From Verrucomicrobiota bacterium (lineage in GTDB: Bacteria > Verrucomicrobiota > Verrucomicrobiia > Limisphaerales > J093), in assembly GCA_022710935.1 (NCBI GenBank), contig JAKLFY010000040.1, positions 1 to 59,423 on the forward strand: a stretch of 59,423 nucleotides of DNA, written 5' to 3'. The notes beneath the pieces are model-generated. The model was not told the origin of the DNA, made no database searches, and was given only the letters and a program-made list of their open reading frames with translations. The position numbers and the translations under genes were made by a program. Below are positions 3,501-12,216 of the stretch, one piece after another (position 1 is the first letter of the stretch; every line of letters begins with the position of its first letter).

Positions 3501-4002
3501 AGCACCCCGGATGCCATTTTAAGGCGAGTGAATCCTGCTCCAAGACCCGCATGCTGTAATAATCTAATCGTGAATGCCTTATAGATAGGCGAAAAAATGG
3601 CGTTTTCTGATACGCAGCGTCCGCATCTCTTACATCGGGTGCTTCATATGTTAGGAATGCCGACACATTGTAAACCCATATAGTAGTCCGCAGTTTTGTA
3701 TATAATTGATTACCAACATAGTATGCACGGAAACGGGATGTGTAAAGTTCTCCGTCACTACTCGAGCATTGAACGATTCCGGCTGAGCCGGTCGAGCGAC
3801 GCTGACAAAGAGTTCGGAATCATGGCTTTGGAGAATCGCGGGAGCACGGCGACGGCACCCCGGATGAGCGGTTGCACGGCAATTGATGGGGACCTTCTGT
3901 TCGGCCTTCTGCTCGCGTTTGCCTGCGGCGGACACGCAGGCAGTACCAAACAGCAGTATCAAATCGTCAAGGTTGAGGGGTCTCGAATGATCCGTAACTC
4001 CC
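3501..4002. other. Intergenic region left of the integrated element
   Basis: About 500 bases, partly AT-rich around 3550-3610, lie between the VPDSG-CTERM gene and the left attachment repeat. Open frames on both strands reach about 100 codons but show no domain, no signal peptide and no convincing start. Before integration this DNA lay just downstream of the tRNA-Lys gene. Confidence 0.5.
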
Positions 4003-4060
4003 TGCTGCTGAAGTGGTGCCCCGGCTAGGACTCGAACCTAGGACCAATTGATTAAGAGTC
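4003..4060. repeat. attL: Left attachment site (displaced 3' part of tRNA-Lys)
   Basis: 58 bases identical to 12130-12187, which lie inside and just past the 3' end of the tRNA-Lys gene. They cover the anticodon loop, variable region, T arm, acceptor 3' strand and CCA. The copy lacks the 5' half of the tRNA and is therefore the displaced fragment. The integrase gene begins 95 bases further on. Confidence 0.93.
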
Positions 4061-4154
4061 TGTTGCTTACGGGTTTTATCAGGTTGCATGATACTTTGCC
4101 GAATTGCGCAAGAAACCTTGTTTTGCTTAGGAAATATGCGAATTTGGCCACAGC

Positions 4155-5525
4155 ATGACACAACCAAGCAAAACCGCACCAAACGCAGAAAGTGGCCAAG
4201 AAGTGGCCAAGATTTTTCCTTCTGTCTCCCGGTTCGCCGCCGCGGTTTGGGAAAGAAAGATCACCCGCCCGACCTACACCGCCGCCGGCAAGAAGCGGCA
4301 AGTTGAAGAATGGCACGCGCGGATTCAATACGGTGGGAAGCGGAGGTGGGTTCCACTTGGTTCAAATTGCAGGCGGACCGCCGCCCGCCGCGCCGCGGAC
4401 TTCTGGCAACACCTTGTCCAATCGGGATGGGATGAAGCCCTGGCCAAGTTTTGCCCGGACCGCGCCACCGCCGACAAAGAGCCGACAATCGGCGCCCTAA
4501 TCGAAGCCGCGACAACCGCGGGCGCCGCTAAGGGCATTTCACCAAAGACGCTCCGAGGCTACGCCGTGTCCCTTCGTTGGATTGCCGCGCGTGTGTTTGG
4601 CGTCCGCGACACCGCCTCGAAATTCGACTATGCGACCGGCGGGCATGGGCAATGGCAGGCGCGAATCGACAACATTCGGTTGGACCGTCTGACCGGCGCC
4701 AAGGTCCAAGCGGCGCTTGACCGCCACATTGCCGAGGCCGCAGACAACCCGATTGCCGAGCGCAAGGCGCGCGTTTCCGCCGCGAGCCTGTTACGCCAAG
4801 CCAAAGCCCTTTTCAGCCCGCGCCTTGAACTGCCCTTTGCGAACCTGCCCCAAGTGTTCACGAAGGCCACCCCGACCGGCCCCCGGCCCGTGAAGATCGA
4901 GGGCGTTGGCAAGCCGCCCCGGTACAAGTCCACAATTGACGCCGCCTCGCTTCTACGGGACGGCAAAGCCGAGCTTGCCACGCAAGACCCTGAGGCATGG
5001 AAAGCCCTTTTGCTTGCCCTTGGCGCCGGCTTGCGGAAATCGGAAATCGACAATCTGACTTGGCCGCAAATCGACGTTCACAAGAACCTGATTCGAGTTG
5101 AAACAACCGCGACTTTCTCGCCCAAGAGCGACGATTCCGAGGGCGAGGTTTTTGTTGACGCCGGATTGATCCGCGAACTCGAGAGCTTCCGCGACAAGGC
5201 CACCGGGCTTTTCGTGATTGAAAGCGCCAAGCCGCCCCGCCCGAAGTCACCCGTCCCTTACTACCGCGGCGAAGTCGTTTATGACCGCCTCGCCGGCTGG
5301 CTTCGCATGAAGGGCATCTTGACGCACAAACCGATTCACGCGTTGCGCCGTGAATTTGGCTCGATTGTGTGCGCGTCCGCCGACGTTCACACGGCGAGCC
5401 GACAACTGCGCCACGCGGACATTGCCGTAACCTCGGCTTACTACCTTGACGGGCGAAAGCGCGCTGCCCCGCCCGTTGGCGCCATGCTTGGAACCGCAAC
5501 CGCCACCACCGCCGCCACGAAATGA
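4155..5525 (+). CDS. int: Tyrosine recombinase (satellite integrase)
   Basis: Integrase of 456 residues that would recombine the tRNA-Lys site. Residues 1-85 include an arm-binding-like region (TYTAAGKKRQVEEWHARIQY) and 120-240 a core-binding SAM-like domain. The catalytic domain shows GAGLRKSEIDNLTW with the first Arg near residue 295, HALRREFG (HxxR) near 395, LRHADI with the second His, and the nucleophile Tyr429 or Tyr430 in TSAYYLD. It lies 95 bases from the left attachment repeat, where an integrase is expected. Repeats of GTGGCCAAGAA overlap its first codons (4190-4212) and recur at the far end, so Int may repress its own gene when bound there. Start at 4155 is the first ATG; a later start is possible. 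Confidence 0.93.
   Translation: MTQPSKTAPNAESGQEVAKIFPSVSRFAAAVWERKITRPTYTAAGKKRQVEEWHARIQYGGKRRWVPLGSNCRRTAARRAADFWQHLVQSGWDEALAKFCPDRATADKEPTIGALIEAATTAGAAKGISPKTLRGYAVSLRWIAARVFGVRDTASKFDYATGGHGQWQARIDNIRLDRLTGAKVQAALDRHIAEAADNPIAERKARVSAASLLRQAKALFSPRLELPFANLPQVFTKATPTGPRPVKIEGVGKPPRYKSTIDAASLLRDGKAELATQDPEAWKALLLALGAGLRKSEIDNLTWPQIDVHKNLIRVETTATFSPKSDDSEGEVFVDAGLIRELESFRDKATGLFVIESAKPPRPKSPVPYYRGEVVYDRLAGWLRMKGILTHKPIHALRREFGSIVCASADVHTASRQLRHADIAVTSAYYLDGRKRAAPPVGAMLGTATATTAATK
4190..4212. promoter_or_regulatory. Candidate integrase arm-type sites, left
   Basis: Two tandem copies of AAGTGGCCAAG lie within the first codons of the integrase gene. The 23-bp block is repeated exactly at 12069-12091, with a variant at 12027-12050, close to the other attachment site. 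Paired direct repeats near both ends are what integrase arm sites look like. Confidence 0.6.
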
Positions 5526-6109
5526 ACACCGACCCGACCGTTTCCGAACTAGCCGCCCTGGCCGCGACGCTGAACGCCGCCGGACGAATGACACCGGACG
5601 CCGCCGCCGAGGCCGCCTTGGCCCACTGGCGCGCCGCAAACGTGCTTCTCTACACCGAGGCCGCCCGCGCGGAAGCGCAAACAAAGGAGCGCGAGGCGAC
5701 CGCCGCCGCCGAGGCGGACTTGCGCGACGCCCTGGCCGCGGTCCGCAAACCCGAGAGGTTTCCGGTCCCGCTGGACGCCGCGTTGCCCTGCTGGCTTCCG
5801 AAGCTAAAAGGCCGCACCGGCGAGGCCGCCGCCTTGTATCGTGCTTACCTGGCCGACAGTCTTACCGCCACCAAGTACCGCGGTTTGAAGGCCGCCACCA
5901 AAGACGAGGTTGCGCAACAGTACGCGCGCGACCGGCAATGGCCTTTCAACGAACAGCAGTTTGGAATGGTCGGGAGTTTGTTCCTGCAATGGTACACCCG
6001 CCGCCACGCCGCCGAGGTTGCCGCTGCCCGCGCCGCCGCTGGCCGCCGAGGCGGGCGACCGCGCAAGAAGGCGAAGGCGCGCACAAGTGGCAACCGAAAA
6101 AAACTTTGA
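5522..6109 (+). CDS. Unknown basic protein of the satellite, coupled to integrase
   Basis: A 195-residue protein that I do not recognise. Its ATG overlaps the integrase stop codon (ATGA), indicating translational coupling. Residues 1-75 are Ala/Glu-rich and probably helical. Residues 90-165 contain a more specific segment (GLKAATKDEVAQQYARDRQW, LFLQWYTRRH). The last 25 residues are very basic (GRRGGRPRKKAKARTSGNRK), suggesting nucleic-acid binding. By position it could be an accessory recombination or replication factor, but that is inference from context only. Confidence 0.65.
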   Translation: MNTDPTVSELAALAATLNAAGRMTPDAAAEAALAHWRAANVLLYTEAARAEAQTKEREATAAAEADLRDALAAVRKPERFPVPLDAALPCWLPKLKGRTGEAAALYRAYLADSLTATKYRGLKAATKDEVAQQYARDRQWPFNEQQFGMVGSLFLQWYTRRHAAEVAAARAAAGRRGGRPRKKAKARTSGNRKKL

Positions 6110-6149
6110 AAAACTTCTTGGACTGACCCGCAACCGCTAGAAACCGTCG

Positions 6150-6244
6150 TTTGCTTTCCCGCCGGCGAGCATTTGCTTTCCGGCGGTTTCGTTTTGCTTT
6201 CCGCCCGCCCCGTTTTGCTTTTCCAAGGCCGCCGTTTGCTTTCC
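6150..6244. repeat. Five 21-22 bp iterons, candidate replication origin
   Basis: The core TTTGCTTTCC (one copy with an extra T) occurs at 6150, 6172, 6193, 6214 and 6235, spaced 22, 21, 21 and 21 bases, about two helical turns, so all copies face the same side of the helix. The array lies in the only large gap of the satellite, just upstream of the HTH and primase-helicase genes. Phased iterons next to a replication gene are typical of plasmid and satellite origins. Confidence 0.72.
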
Positions 6245-6347
6245 GACCGTCCGACCGACCGTGAAAACCCGTGTGGTAAAGCTGACTCGCGTCGCAAATA
6301 GGCGCGCTAGAACGGCGCGGGTTGCGAGCGAACGAAAGGGCGAACGA

Positions 6348-6557
6348 ATGAAGAAAACAGTTGTGGAAAACGAGACGAGCGAGGCGAGACTTTATGACCC
6401 GAACGCGGTTGCGCGAGCCTTTCAATGGCACCCGGAGAGCGTTCGGCGAGCGATCCGCCAAGGGCGAATTCACGCGCTCCGGCTTGGCAACGGTTGGCGC
6501 GTCCCCAGCGACGAACTCGCGCGAATTCTCCGCGACGGGCTTCCGACCGCGAACTAA
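6348..6557 (+). CDS. Excisionase/AlpA-type helix-turn-helix protein
   Basis: A 69-residue protein with one winged HTH of the excisionase (HTH_17/MerR-like) class: LYDPNAVARAFQWHPESVRR, then AIRQGRIHALRLGNGWRVPS with the typical R-x-G-x-x-W-x-x-P wing, then DELARIL. The ATG at 6348 follows CGAACGAAAGGGCGAACGA. It sits between the iterons and the primase, where PICIs carry alpA, and is probably the switch controlling excision or replication. The primase GTG begins 7 bases after its stop codon. Confidence 0.8.
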   Translation: MKKTVVENETSEARLYDPNAVARAFQWHPESVRRAIRQGRIHALRLGNGWRVPSDELARILRDGLPTAN

Positions 6558-6564
6558 ACCCGCC

Positions 6565-8877
6565 GTGAACGCCACCGAATTTGTTTCGCTGCTAGAGGCC
6601 CGCGGGCTTCACCCGGTCCGCAACGGTTCGGGCTGGGCGTCAAAGTGCCCAAGTCACGAAGACGGGAACCCGAGCTTGTCCGTTGCCGAGGGCCGCGACG
6701 GCGCGGTTCTTGTCAAATGCCATGCGAATTGCGCCACAAAAGACGTATGCGCGGCTTTGGGTTGCACCGTGGGCGACTTGTTCCCGGCGCGCGAGAAAGC
6801 CCGTCCTAGTGGCAACGGCGCGCCGCGCGGGCGCATTGTGGCGACCTACCCTTACACCAACGAAAAGGGCGAGTTGCTTTTCGAGGTTTGCCGTTTCGCG
6901 CCAAAAGACTTCAGACAACGCCGCCCGGACCCGACCGCGCCCGGCGGTTGGAATTGGAGCGTCAAGGGCGTTCGGCGCGTCTTGTATCGGTTGCCCGAGG
7001 TTCTGGCCGCCGTCGAAACAGGCCGGCCCATTTACGTTGTCGAAGGCGAAAAAGACGTTGCCGCGCTTGTCCACGCTGGTTTCGAGGCGACAACCTGCCC
7101 GGCGGGCGCGGGCAAGTGGCGAAGCGAATACTCGGACGCCCTGGCCGGCGCCGAGGTTGTCGTTTTGCCCGACGCCGACACGCCCGGAAGGAAGCACGCC
7201 GCACAAGTGGCCCAGGCGCTTTATGGCGTGGCCCGGTCCGTCCGCGTTTGCGAACTGCCCGGCGAGTTGAACGGACGCCCGGTCAAAGATGTTTCGGACT
7301 GGTTTGCCGCCGGCGGGACGCCCGAGCAGTTGCGCGCCATGGCCGACGCGGCGCCGGAATGGACACCGACCCCGGACCCGCGCCCCGAGGGCGAACGCAA
7401 GCCCGAGGCCGGCCCGGCGCAACCGCCGGCGACGTATGCGCCGCTTGCTGCTCGGTACGGCGCGCCGCTGTTTTTCGGCGAAGGCGGGACGGTCCGAGGC
7501 GTCAACGAAAGGTTCTTTGCCGCCCTTGTCCACGCCGCCGGCGACATACTCTTTGAACCGTCCGAACGCGCCTTCTATGAATACACCGCCGCAACCGGAC
7601 TATGGGCGCGCGCGTCCGAGGAACACACCCGCGAGCGCGTCAATGCCCGGCTTGTAGCGTACGGGCGCGAAGTTGCGACGCCGCTTGAAGCAAAGGCGAC
7701 CGCCACCCGCGCGAACGCCGTCTGTTCGCATTTGAAGGCGATAGCCGAACGCCGCGGCGCCTTCGCCCACAAAGGCGACGCAATTCACCTTGCCAATGGC
7801 ACGGTTCGGTTTTCGGACACCGGGCGCGCCACCCTGGCCGCGTTCAGACCCGAGGACTTTTCAAGAAACCGTTGCCCGATACCGTTCAGCGAAACCGCCG
7901 AGTGTCCGCGGTTCATTGACTCGTTTCTACGGACCGCCTTGCCCGAGGCCGACGCCGACTTTCTGCAACGATGGGCTGGGCTGGCCCTGGCCGGCGTGAA
8001 CCCGGCGCAAAGGTTTGTCATTCTGGACGGCGCCGCCGCGACGGGAAAAAGCACGTTTGCCCGGCTCATGCAACTGCTCGTTGGCGCGGAAAACTGCGCA
8101 CAGTTGCGGACCGAACTTCTGCGCGAACGTTTCGAGTTTTTCCGCTTCGTTGGTAAGACGCTTCTACTCGCGCCCGACGTGCCCGGCGACTTCCTAGACC
8201 GGAAAGGTGCGTCCGTTTTGAAGGCCCTGGTTGGCGGCGATCCGCTTACTGCCGAAGCCAAAGGGAGCAACGAAGTCTTTTCCCTGGCCGGGACGTTCAA
8301 CGTTTTGATCACGTCAAATTCGCGCTTGCGCGTCCGGCTTGACGGCGACGCGGGCGCGTGGCGCCGCCGGGTTGTCATAGTGCGTTTCGATCAACCGCCG
8401 CCGACGGTCCGCCTCCCGAACTTCGCCGATAGGCTCGTTGCCGACGAAGGCCCCGGAATTGTCCGCTGGGCGCTTGCTGGTTTCCTTCGTGCCCGGCGGG
8501 AAATTGCCGAGACCGGCGACCTTGCTTTGACAGCCGAGCAAACCGCGCGGGTTGACGGGCTGCTGAACGAGTCTGACAGCGTGCGGCGCTTCCTGGCCGA
8601 ATGCACCGAGGCCGGCGACGGCGACGTTTCAACCACCGAGTTGACGGAAGCTTATTTCGCGTTTTGCGCGTCCCGCGAATGGACCCCGCAACCGGCCCGG
8701 ACCGTGGACCGGACTTTCTCGGACGCTATTCTCGAACTGCATGGCGCAAGTCAAAGGCACGATATTCGACGGGACCGAAAGAGCGTCCGAGGCTGGCGAG
8801 GCGTGGAATTAAGGCGCGAACCGTCCGCGCCCTTGCCCGAGGCGCCCGAGCTTGAACCGGAGGTTGCTTATGTCTGA
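6565..8877 (+). CDS. Primase-helicase (zinc-finger primase, TOPRIM, SF3-type ATPase)
   Basis: Replication protein of 770 residues for the satellite. Near residues 27-57 it has CPSHED ... C-H-A-N-C, the zinc-binding head of phage and plasmid primases. Near 158-205 a TOPRIM domain shows VVEGEKDVAAL and VVLPDADTPG. After a Pro-rich linker (about 265-290) comes a D5-like region and a superfamily-3-type helicase with Walker A GAAATGKST near 489-497 and a Walker B-like LLLAPDVPGD. A GTG start at 6565 is chosen because it follows the HTH stop codon and leaves the zinc head intact; the open frame to 6361 overlaps the HTH gene and is not needed. It is likely to act at the iterons at 6150-6244. Confidence 0.88.
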   Translation: MNATEFVSLLEARGLHPVRNGSGWASKCPSHEDGNPSLSVAEGRDGAVLVKCHANCATKDVCAALGCTVGDLFPAREKARPSGNGAPRGRIVATYPYTNEKGELLFEVCRFAPKDFRQRRPDPTAPGGWNWSVKGVRRVLYRLPEVLAAVETGRPIYVVEGEKDVAALVHAGFEATTCPAGAGKWRSEYSDALAGAEVVVLPDADTPGRKHAAQVAQALYGVARSVRVCELPGELNGRPVKDVSDWFAAGGTPEQLRAMADAAPEWTPTPDPRPEGERKPEAGPAQPPATYAPLAARYGAPLFFGEGGTVRGVNERFFAALVHAAGDILFEPSERAFYEYTAATGLWARASEEHTRERVNARLVAYGREVATPLEAKATATRANAVCSHLKAIAERRGAFAHKGDAIHLANGTVRFSDTGRATLAAFRPEDFSRNRCPIPFSETAECPRFIDSFLRTALPEADADFLQRWAGLALAGVNPAQRFVILDGAAATGKSTFARLMQLLVGAENCAQLRTELLRERFEFFRFVGKTLLLAPDVPGDFLDRKGASVLKALVGGDPLTAEAKGSNEVFSLAGTFNVLITSNSRLRVRLDGDAGAWRRRVVIVRFDQPPPTVRLPNFADRLVADEGPGIVRWALAGFLRARREIAETGDLALTAEQTARVDGLLNESDSVRRFLAECTEAGDGDVSTTELTEAYFAFCASREWTPQPARTVDRTFSDAILELHGASQRHDIRRDRKSVRGWRGVELRREPSAPLPEAPELEPEVAYV

Positions 8878-9247
8878 CCGTGACATAACCGAGAGTTTAC
8901 AGAGTTTCACCGGGTTGCACGTCTCGGACGTTTCGGACGCTACATTTTTACTCGGAGACACTCGCGCGGGGGGGGAGAGAACAGAGAAGGAAGACAGAGA
9001 AGCCAAAAACATGGAACGGTGTGGACATTTACCCGTCCGAAACGTCCGAGAACACAACCAAGCGCAACCCGCCGCGAGTCCGATCACCGACGCCGTGTTC
9101 TGGCATTTGCTGGCAACCTGGCCCGCCGCCCGAGAACACCCACGCTGGCGCGACCGGCCCGAACTCCGGCGGGAAGTGGCCCGGCTCGAACGCCGCCGCC
9201 GAGCATGGCGACCGGCGAGGTTCAGGTTTCCAAACGACAGCCAATGA
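8870..9247 (+). CDS. Small satellite protein of unknown function
   Basis: A 125-residue frame whose ATG overlaps the primase end by 8 bases. N-terminal part (MSDRDITESLQSFTGLHVSD) is polar; the C-terminal part is Arg-rich (RREVARLERRRRAWRPARFR). A run of eight G at 8968-8975 lies inside and could slip. No family is recognised. The main evidence that it is real is overlapping coupling on both sides. Confidence 0.5.
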   Translation: MSDRDITESLQSFTGLHVSDVSDATFLLGDTRAGGERTEKEDREAKNMERCGHLPVRNVREHNQAQPAASPITDAVFWHLLATWPAAREHPRWRDRPELRREVARLERRRRAWRPARFRFPNDSQ

Positions 9248-9713: not shown

Positions 9714-9755
9714 AACCAAATTTCCGCTTTCGTTTCCGCTTTCCGCTTTTGTCCT

Positions 9756-10769
9756 ATGAGAAAACCCACAACGAAACTACTGGCCGAGAAATACAACACA
9801 ACGGCGCGGACGATCCGCAACTGGCGCCGTCAAGGCGCGCCACTAAGCGACGCGAAGGCAATGCAAACCTGGCTCGCCGGGCGCCGGTCCGCACCCCCCG
9901 CCATCGGTCCGACCAAAGCGCCGCCGAAACCACCCGCGCCACCGCAAAAGTCAACCAAAGCACCGCCGGCGCCGCCACCGCTGAAACCGAAGGCCGAGGT
10001 TGTCGGCAAGCTGGGCGCACCCGAGGCGCTGCGCCGCCTTGAAAAAGCCGAGGTTGCTGCCTTCGCAAATTTGGAGGCCGCCCTTGCAACTGGCAACGCG
10101 CTCCAAGTTCAAGCCGCAAGGCGCGGTTACTTGGAAACGACAGAGCAACTACGGAAGGCCGACTTGGCCATTACTGAAAGCCGCCGGACTTCGGGCGAAA
10201 CACTTTCACGCGCGGACGTGGAACACTTCGCCGAACGTGCGGGACGCGCCCTTGGCTTGCTGGGCTTCGAGCTTACCCAAGGTTTGGCCGGCGAGGTTGC
10301 CCGGCAGACCGAACCCGGCGCCATTATTCACTTGCTGCGAACCGCTTTCGACAACCGCTTGCGCCTCGCCCTGGCCGGCCCCGAGGACGTTGTTCCTTCG
10401 TGGCTTCGCCGGGCATTCACTAAGGGCGCCGCCCTTGGCCCCGGCGCCGAGGACTGGGTTGAAAGCTTCGCCACCCTGGCGCGCGCCTTCGTTGCAACGC
10501 ATGACGCGTCCGTTTTGGAAGCCGCCCGCCGGGCCGAACTCGAAAACGAAATGAACGCGAAGCTTTGGGCGGACGGTCTGGCCGCGTTACGGCGAGGCAA
10601 TCTTGACGAGCTGCCCGGCTTGGCCCTGGACAAGTGGAATGTAATGCGCGCGGACCTTGGCTTGCCACCGCGCCCCCGCGCCCCGACCGGCGCCGAGATA
10701 AAGCGCGCCCGAGAAATGCGCCTCGCCGGGACGCTGGCGCCCGACGCCGACGTTCCTTTGGACCCGTGA
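9756..10769 (+). CDS. HTH protein, possible terminase small subunit-like (TerS)
   Basis: 337 residues. The first 30 (TKLLAEKYNTTARTIRNWRR QGAPL) form a helix-turn-helix like those of phage DNA-packaging small subunits. Residues about 48-80 are a Pro/Lys linker (PPKPPAPPQKSTKAPPAPPP). The rest is helical, with YLETTEQLRKADLAITESRR and a long charged C-terminal part. In PICIs a TerS redirects packaging to satellite DNA. Position near the end of a satellite operon fits that role. This is inference; a replication or plasmid-partition DNA-binding protein is the alternative. The ATG overlaps the stop of the alternative frame of the preceding gene. Confidence 0.6.
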   Translation: MRKPTTKLLAEKYNTTARTIRNWRRQGAPLSDAKAMQTWLAGRRSAPPAIGPTKAPPKPPAPPQKSTKAPPAPPPLKPKAEVVGKLGAPEALRRLEKAEVAAFANLEAALATGNALQVQAARRGYLETTEQLRKADLAITESRRTSGETLSRADVEHFAERAGRALGLLGFELTQGLAGEVARQTEPGAIIHLLRTAFDNRLRLALAGPEDVVPSWLRRAFTKGAALGPGAEDWVESFATLARAFVATHDASVLEAARRAELENEMNAKLWADGLAALRRGNLDELPGLALDKWNVMRADLGLPPRPRAPTGAEIKRAREMRLAGTLAPDADVPLDP

Positions 10770-12000
10770 AATGGGCCGGTCCGTTCTATCGGCCCGACTC
10801 GCGAACGTGCGTTGTAGGGCAAGCCAGAGGCCTTCTTTTCCCGACCGGCCCGCCGAAACGGCGGTTTTCGACCGTCCGGCGCCAGAAACACCGCGCCGCG
10901 CCCGCGGACAAAACGCCGCACAAGGCCACCTAGACGCCCTGGCCCGCGCCCGTGGACGGTCCGCACCGCTGACACCCGGCCCGCCTCGAAGGGCGCACCC
11001 CGAGGCCCTGGCGCGCGCCCGTGGCCACCCTAGCAAGGTCAACGAGAGTATGGCCCGAGGTTGACGCCGAGGCCCGAGGCGCTGCCCGCCACCGCAACCG
11101 TTGGCCACCCGCCCGCCGGACGTGGCAACCGTTCGCGTCCCGGGGCGAAGAAACCGGCGGTCCGCCTCGAAACCGAAGGCCGCCGTGGCCCGGCGGACGC
11201 AACGCCCGACGCGAAGGCGCCGGCCCCCGAGACCGCCGCCGACGGAAGGAAGGCCCCGACCGTTGCCCGAGGCCCCGACTGGCCGGCGAGGCGATCCGCC
11301 CCGGCGATCACGCAAGACCGCGCGAGGCCCTGACCCCGAGACCCTCGCCCCGCCGGATGAAGGCCCGACCCCGAGGCCCCCGGCGATCATGGCCGGCGCG
11401 GCGCCACCCGTCCCGACGCCGAGGCCGGACGCCCGACCGGCCCCGAGAGGAAGGCGCCTTCCTGGCCCCAAGGCGATCCGCGCCCCGACCGGCAAGACCG
11501 GCCCCGAGACACCCCGAAGCGAGACCCGACCGGCGGGAAGGCGATCCGCCACAAGCCCCCGCCTTCGCGCCCAATTGACACGAGACGCACCGAAAGCCCC
11601 GCCGCCACCCTGGACACCCCGAGGCCGATCCGCCCCGCCGAGGCCCCGACCGCGAGGGCGACCCCCAGGCGGACCCGACGCCCCGGACCGGCGCCGCCCT
11701 GGCGCTTCGAGGCCCGGCCCGACCGCCGAGGCGATCACCCGAGGCCTTGGCCCGACCCCGAGGCCGCCGGCGATCATGGCCGGTTGGCGATCCGCCGCGA
11801 AGGCCGACCCTGGCCCGAGGCCCGACCGACGGGAAGGCGGTCCGCGACGGTAACGCCCGGCGCCCGTCGTTGTGACCCTGGCCAGCGAGGCGATCACCGG
11901 ACCGCGAGGCTGTGACTCCCGACCGGACGCCGGCGAAGTGGCAAAGACACCCTGGCTGGCGAGGCCCGCCGCTTCTCATTTTCACCCGGACTTGTGGCCA
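10770..12000. other. GC-rich repetitive tail of the satellite, no credible gene
   Basis: About 1.2 kb of extreme GC DNA built from short motifs such as CCCCGAGGCC, GAGGCGATCCGCC and GGCGATCATGGCCGG. A 33-base segment at 11364-11396 returns at 11751-11783 with one mismatch. Long open frames exist on both strands at once, but they encode only Pro/Arg/Gly low-complexity sequence, as expected when stop codons are rare. It could be a structured RNA, packaging or replication region, or decaying repeats. Confidence 0.6.
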
Positions 12001-12026
12001 AGGGCGGCGGATTTGCACCCTGAAAG

Positions 12027-12091
12027 ACTGGCCAAGAAGTGGCCAAGAAGCCCGACCGCCGCCGCGACAAGTGGCCAAGAAGTGGCCAAGA
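12027..12091. promoter_or_regulatory. Candidate integrase arm-type sites, right
   Basis: GTGGCCAAGAAGTGGCCAAG occurs at 12069-12091 as an exact match to 4190-4212, and as a close variant at 12027-12050. The pairs sit 40-100 bases inside the right attachment site, mirroring the left end. Confidence 0.6.
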
Positions 12092-12129
12092 CGCGCTTGG
12101 GATTGTCGGTCGGATTCTTCGTAACCCCT

Positions 12130-12216
<87 letters not shown>

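Follow-up and report, generated by a model that had tools for sequence, protein, structure and literature searches.

Helically phased repeats paired with an integrase-overlapping gene in an integrated element of a Verrucomicrobiota bacterium

The element and its repeat array

The window analysed here, a stretch of 59,423 nucleotides of a Verrucomicrobiota genome, carries an integrated element of 8.1 kb flanked by an 85-nt direct repeat, the two copies of which are 89% identical. The attL-side copy lies at 3983..4067 and the attR-side copy at 12110..12194, where it overlaps a tRNA-Lys gene (12141-12216). The order of features is integrase, ORF195, repeat array, HTH_17 gene, primase-helicase, small ORFs and the gene of a 337-aa protein, all named genes being on the + strand. 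The tyrosine integrase (4155..5525; PF00589, E 4.5e-9) is followed by ORF195 (5522..6109), a member of an uncharacterised family that begins inside int with a 4-nt ATGA overlap, in the manner of IOLG, and that we propose as the binder of the array. The 69-residue HTH protein pointed out in an earlier, sequence-only reading of the window is real: it is an AlpA/excisionase-like HTH_17 protein (6348..6557; PF12728, E 3.6e-8). The primase-helicase (6565..8877, GTG start) has Toprim-like, D5_N and DUF5906 (E 9.6e-14) matches, and it seems to be mosaic, with two halves that can be exchanged, its relatives often matching either the Toprim half only (residues 1-290) or the helicase half only (residues 290-770). 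The 337-aa protein (9756..10769) has a weak terminase-small-subunit match (phrog_57, E 0.052). A TerS gene is clear at locus L170 (phrog_57, E 1.7e-13), which belongs to the only other genome of the same genus among the matches listed, and because of this gene 'phage satellite' is a fair label for the element, judged from genes alone.

Short tandem repeats are found near both ends of the element. Two copies of AAGTGGCCAAG lie at the int end (4190..4211, + strand), and 11-bp repeats lie at the other end, in a repeat stretch spanning 11992-12090, with three exact copies and one with two mismatches at 12026..12090 (+ strand). Variants of the AAGTGGCCAAG type occur at the same place near int in the related loci L117 and L170, and these tandem 11-bp repeats are probable integrase arm-type sites.

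The array itself (6150..6244, + strand) consists of five TTTGCTTT cores starting at 6150, 6172, 6193, 6214 and 6235. The steps of 22, 21, 21 and 21 reported by the sequence-only reading are confirmed, and the 8-mer is exact in all five copies, with the small correction that the extended core reads TTTGCTTTTC in the fourth copy and TTTGCTTTCC in the four others. The array is indeed beside the replication genes, between the ORF195 stop at 6109 and the HTH gene, the primase starting about 320 bp further on at 6565. Not one of 200 dinucleotide-shuffled sequences gave a chain as good as that of the window (p = 0.005, the floor of the test), and paired TTTGCTTT cores 11-14 bp apart are unique to the array within the whole 7.52-Mb genome (four forward matches, none in reverse and none for a backward control). 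When core gaps were called without a spacing rule, the 33 gaps clustered at multiples of 10.5 bp (R 0.78), the best value of a period search on the same gaps being 11.6, not 10.5. The same-face spacing includes three-turn gaps of 31-33 bp, which points to binding of double-stranded DNA. The proposal that the copies share one helix face stands, in the form of a functional-looking array of protein sites that is conserved in relatives.

A gene that seems to travel with the array

ORF195 was present in 13 of 313 genomes of the order in a single-sequence search; a first profile found it in 16 of 384 genomes of the class and a second profile in 45 of 313 genomes of the order, while a phylum-wide search found it in 2 of 357 genomes, including that of the window. 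No relatives were found in viral contigs, plasmids or phages. This family of integrase-overlapping genes has so far been seen in the class of the element. Searches of Pfam, NCBIfam and PDB gave neither a family match nor a recognised DNA-binding domain, the PHROG match is to an uncharacterised family at E 0.011 only, and a single-sequence AlphaFold2 model was poor (pLDDT 55.9), too poor for a fold search. The ATGA overlap with int recurs in L172, L178, L184, L187 and L190, and the gene upstream of ORF195 matches PF00589 in 10/10 further loci, below the curated cut-off in L180 and L191.

Arrays follow the ORF195 stop at p<=0.01 in 10 of the 14 first hits and in 8 of 15 further rows (7/14 distinct) of profile-found relatives, the gap set for both having been chosen after the first loci had been read, and the further loci having been read by eye before scoring (L198 over 400 bp instead of 260). 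These further loci use other words at the same spacing: AAGCATC, TTATGCT (33/33), TGCCGGA, TTCGCT and TTCGTTTTT. In a test fixed beforehand on 32 new second-profile hits, which left out L247 (no DNA downstream), 9/32 had an array at p<=0.01 and 13/32 at p<=0.05, compared with 3/400 and 16/400 control segments taken after other long ORFs of the same loci (400 of 698 candidate segments; loci with fewer than three copies counted as p = 1). No array was detected in the other 19 of the 32 new hits, which were above p 0.05. Nor did an array follow ORF195 in L171, L174, L176, L179, L185, L186, L188, L189, L193, L194 and L195; among the array-less rows some are truncated, and the L179 protein resembles an integrase.

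The sequence-only reading had taken the array as the probable origin, with the HTH protein or the primase recognising it, and had suggested looking for co-variation of iterons and primase in related elements. Primase homologs were gathered from 286 genomes of the class, 320 genomes of the order and two named loci, giving 77 loci; the 800 bp upstream were testable in 73 of them. Floor-level arrays were present in 3/73 loci, namely the window, L117 (primase 61% identical to that of the window) and L133, which are exactly those with ORF195 there. Three others (L045, L051 and L140) had arrays at a nominal 0.03-0.05, as chance alone would give. Scanning more widely brought in L061, which has ORF195 as well. 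In L170, the same five iterons at 22/21/21/21 are kept together with ORF195 (58% identity) and the HTH protein (68% identity), and the Toprim-DUF5906 primase is replaced by an AAA_25 helicase. The array is therefore absent beside related primases unless ORF195 is present, the very outcome that the sequence-only reading had named as refuting its proposal, and this absence, together with the helicase exchange in L170, led us to reject the primase as cognate protein. The array is real and conserved; the recognition of a satellite array of protein sites was sound, and its assignment as the primase origin is not supported.

At primase loci that lack ORF195, the wider scan also returned seven phased arrays. 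Inspection covered four of them (L059, L067 and L120 were left out), and these four (L127, L130, L134 and L146) were rejected, as each lies within a reading frame, or where one ends, close to a terminase-like gene. Look-alikes of iterons occur elsewhere: the 21-bp tandem repeats at 7104-7400 of L176, upstream of its ORF195, and at 10539 of L127 can be read as coding repeats of 7 residues in open frames. Three TTTGCTTT words at 21-bp steps were also seen in 16 IMG/VR contigs (L101-L116), in a scan made without a control, and a search of these 16 contigs for a primase relative found none.

Sequence similarities among loci separate the neighbouring genes in the same way. With cores aligned in register by hand, iteron similarity followed ORF195 similarity (rho 0.45, p 0.0005, 17 loci; 0.45, p 0.003, when thinned to 14), and it followed neither the HTH protein (rho -0.07, p 0.68, 16 loci) nor the integrase (rho 0.02, p 0.41, 13 loci), these p values, like the others given here, being optimistic because related loci are not independent. 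HTH and integrase similarities were correlated with each other (rho 0.60, 13 loci). These correlations point to two pairs that seem to travel together: the array goes with ORF195, and the integrase with the AlpA-like HTH protein, Int and AlpA behaving like a single co-inherited excision module. Taken with the downstream arrays, the comparative case for pairing the array with ORF195 is strong. Occurrence of the iteron core at the int promoter was also considered, since TTTTGCTT and AAGCAAAA stand on either side of the int start of the window element, and was dropped, this arrangement not being conserved in L117.

Probable control of the HTH-helicase operon

Two further features accompany the array. 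Downstream of the last iteron and ahead of the HTH gene, 7 of 17 loci have a TGNTA motif at 38-42 nt from the last core; when spacings longer by one or two helical turns are counted too, the number rises to 12/17 (shuffle mean 0.72, 0/5000 as high). In the window the motif is an extended -10-like TGGTA (6274..6278, + strand), which begins 39 nt past the first base of the last iteron and is a putative promoter of the HTH-primase operon. The motif was first spotted by eye on the same 17 loci; of the 13 new ORF195 hits with p<=0.05, 4 have it in the phase set. A sigma-70 consensus scan of the window found no promoter, including at 6274..6278. The second feature is a terminator-like hairpin with a T-tail inside the array, seen in 9/17 loci where 0.8 were expected. 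That of the window (CCGCCGG-14-CCGGCGG, 6159..6186, + strand, with a T-rich tail to 6195; -20.6 kcal/mol, z -2.57) is interleaved with iterons 1-3. Because of the woven-in hairpin and the downstream TGNTA, the array appears to stand at the end of an int-ORF195 unit and at the start of an HTH-helicase unit.

Starting from what is directly observed (an array that accompanies ORF195 and co-varies with it, is in helical phase with TGNTA and has a hairpin embedded in it), we consider it probable, with confidence somewhat better than even, that the array is a same-face operator for ORF195, an IOLG-like protein controlling, and probably activating, the early HTH-helicase operon. ORF195, encoded just upstream, would bind the five same-face copies, TGNTA would be the promoter element of the HTH(AlpA-like)-helicase operon, and bound ORF195 would control this early operon, probably by activation rather than repression. 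Such control would make ORF195 a switch for excision and replication.

The element resembles the PICMIs of Vibrionaceae, which, in the sections of PMC10803314 cited here, carry int, an int-overlapping iolg (ATGA), alpA and prim, with alpA-up1-prim forming the early regulon. The alpA profiles of that work include HTH_17 and its prim profiles include DUF5906, membership asking for AlpA as PF05930 or PF12728 and for a primase with DUF3987 and/or DUF5906; the overlap with int is of 1, 4 or 13 nt in 21/35 subfamilies, and the iolg of PICMI115 is essential for excision, its function being unknown (PMC10803314, same sections). The window has the same order of int, int-overlapping gene, AlpA and primase, ORF195 being likened to iolg by position and overlap; as judged from domain matches alone, PF00589, AlpA (PF12728), a DUF5906 primase and the ATGA int overlap are all found in the element. 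However, PICMIs are integrated next to fis, whereas the att repeat of the window element overlaps tRNA-Lys, so that by definition it falls outside the PICMIs. It also differs from PICMIs in that its relatives have a TerS gene and in having a phased repeat array before the HTH gene; the word 'iteron' has no match in the main text of PMC10803314. How a helper switches on alpA-up1-prim, and how integrase, AlpA and the int-overlapping product work together, are given as open questions for PICMIs (PMC10803314, in part). Should ORF195 be a gene of the PICMI iolg kind, a DNA target and a putative promoter for it are now in hand.

Could ORF195 act on the same operator as a repressor of the HTH-helicase operon, keeping the element latent? 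The same association data would fit, and ORF195 is translationally coupled to int by the ATGA overlap, int-iolg having been proposed to be constitutive in PICMI115 (PMC10803314, as far as the cited sections go). However, the copy nearest to the putative -10 lies upstream of it and not over it, at 38-42 nt in 7/17 loci. A binding position upstream of the -10 is more usual for activators, and we regard repression as unlikely.

A candidate replication origin and remaining readings

Alternatively, replication could start at the array, its iterons being bound by ORF195 or the primase as initiator. In iteron plasmids, the origin has direct repeats of some 21 bp that all face the same side of the helix, and the window array resembles such origins as a set of phased direct repeats of that length; it adjoins replication genes, and its same-face spacing would suit binding of an initiator. 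The AT-richest 40-mer of the element (6085-6124) is just upstream, and a DnaA-box-like TTTTCCACA lies at 6362, 118 bp downstream. This signature of a DUE and DnaA box is present in the window but not conserved over 17 loci, neither for AT-rich flanks (mean percentile 0.77 upstream and 0.73 downstream of the arrays) nor for DnaA boxes (1 seen, 0.40 expected). Unlike an iteron plasmid origin, the array also has as its next downstream gene an HTH regulator and not an initiator. Nor does it appear to follow the primase: it is kept when the helicase is exchanged in L170, and primase homologs without ORF195 lack it. An origin at 6150 is in our view unlikely.

A better candidate lies 3' of the primase, where exact 18-nt inverted arms made of TCGGACG units at 9-bp steps are placed 94 nt apart: the left arm (8922..8939, + strand) has two units 9 bp apart, and the right arm (9034..9051, - strand) is its exact reverse complement. 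The layout is shared by L117, where both arms differ by an identical change of base. As the window arms are inside an ORF conserved in L117 (orf131, 39% identity), constraint on the orf131 protein may contribute to their conservation. At 8868 (60% AT) and 8992 (57.5% AT) the element has two of its 12 AT-richest 40-mers, only the one at 8992 being between the arms. In a test that took in 74 of the 77 primase loci, exact inverted arms of at least 12 nt were found around the primase stop in 15/74 loci vs 2/70 control windows (loci with arms include the window, L117, L009, L043, L045, L129, L138, L140 and L144); tandem units of 8 or 9 bp make up the arms at 12 of these 15 loci, whether or not the element carries ORF195. 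L170 has other repeats after its helicase, and its longest inverted arm is not significant (p 0.134). These pairs are candidate replication origins that would travel with the primase, and the origin of the element is more likely to be there than at the 6150 array. In a Gram-negative PICI, the origin is immediately 3' of pri-rep and has two iteron sets with an AT-rich stretch between them (PMC6092414, in the portion cited); the window arms at 8922-9051 match these two sets, and the element shares with such PICIs int, an AlpA-like HTH protein, a primase-helicase and, in some cases, TerS. The 6150 array is no part of this scheme: it is an additional array, distinct from the arms, that precedes the HTH gene and goes with ORF195. 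The PLE of Vibrio cholerae has iterons and a separate partner, RepA, for which neither a primase nor a helicase role is predicted (PMC7145576, likewise in part). Our element would be similar as a satellite with iterons and a proposed separate partner, but PLE has a RepA_N initiator and ORF195 matches no such family.

Autoregulation by the HTH_17 protein through the array is suggested by the position of its gene directly downstream and by the AlpA of a Gram-negative PICI, which activates its own promoter (PMC6092414, in part); an HTH_17-like ORF is indeed found upstream in 45/77 primase loci. Yet none of the 41 primase loci that have this ORF and no same-strand ORF195 has a floor-level array in the 800 bp upstream, and with the rho of -0.07 this led us to reject the HTH protein as cognate and makes autoregulation very improbable. 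It is more improbable still that the array is only an intrinsic terminator with recurring T-tracts, acting as RNA: the hairpin and T-tail of 9/17 arrays, and the stability of that of the window, would fit, but 8/17 arrays have no such hairpin, and neither helical phasing over 3-5 copies nor T-tract-free cores (TGCCGGA, AAGCATC) would be needed for termination. Arm-type sites and TerS packaging sites can both be short repeats in satellites, and L170 has its TerS gene, but the array lies 2 kb from the att core, separate 11-bp repeats are present near both ends and near int in L117 and L170, and these repeats with the integrase rho of 0.02 led us to reject the integrase as cognate. An arm or packaging site is in our view likewise very improbable.

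Going beyond operator control by ORF195, we tentatively suggest, at a little less than even confidence, that ORF195 founds a new family of sequence-specific DNA-binding satellite regulators encoded by integrase-overlapping genes, the site specificity of which would diversify together with the phased array before the alpA-helicase promoter. This module would stay fixed while helicase and origin are swapped as a second module, and integrase and AlpA would form a third. If true, satellites of this lineage would keep a regulator-operator pair fixed while swapping their replication machinery. The 3' arms place a candidate origin downstream of the primase. A literature search found no described satellites of this kind in this lineage.

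Other parts of the element have repeats of their own. Three near-copies of TTTCCGCTTTC are found at 9721-9752, in an AT-richer stretch ahead of the 337-aa gene. The region 10800-12000 is very GC-rich (up to 81% GC) with a strong A-over-T skew; the ORFs scanned there are without a good family match, and it contains internal 35-nt repeats at 11362 and 11749.
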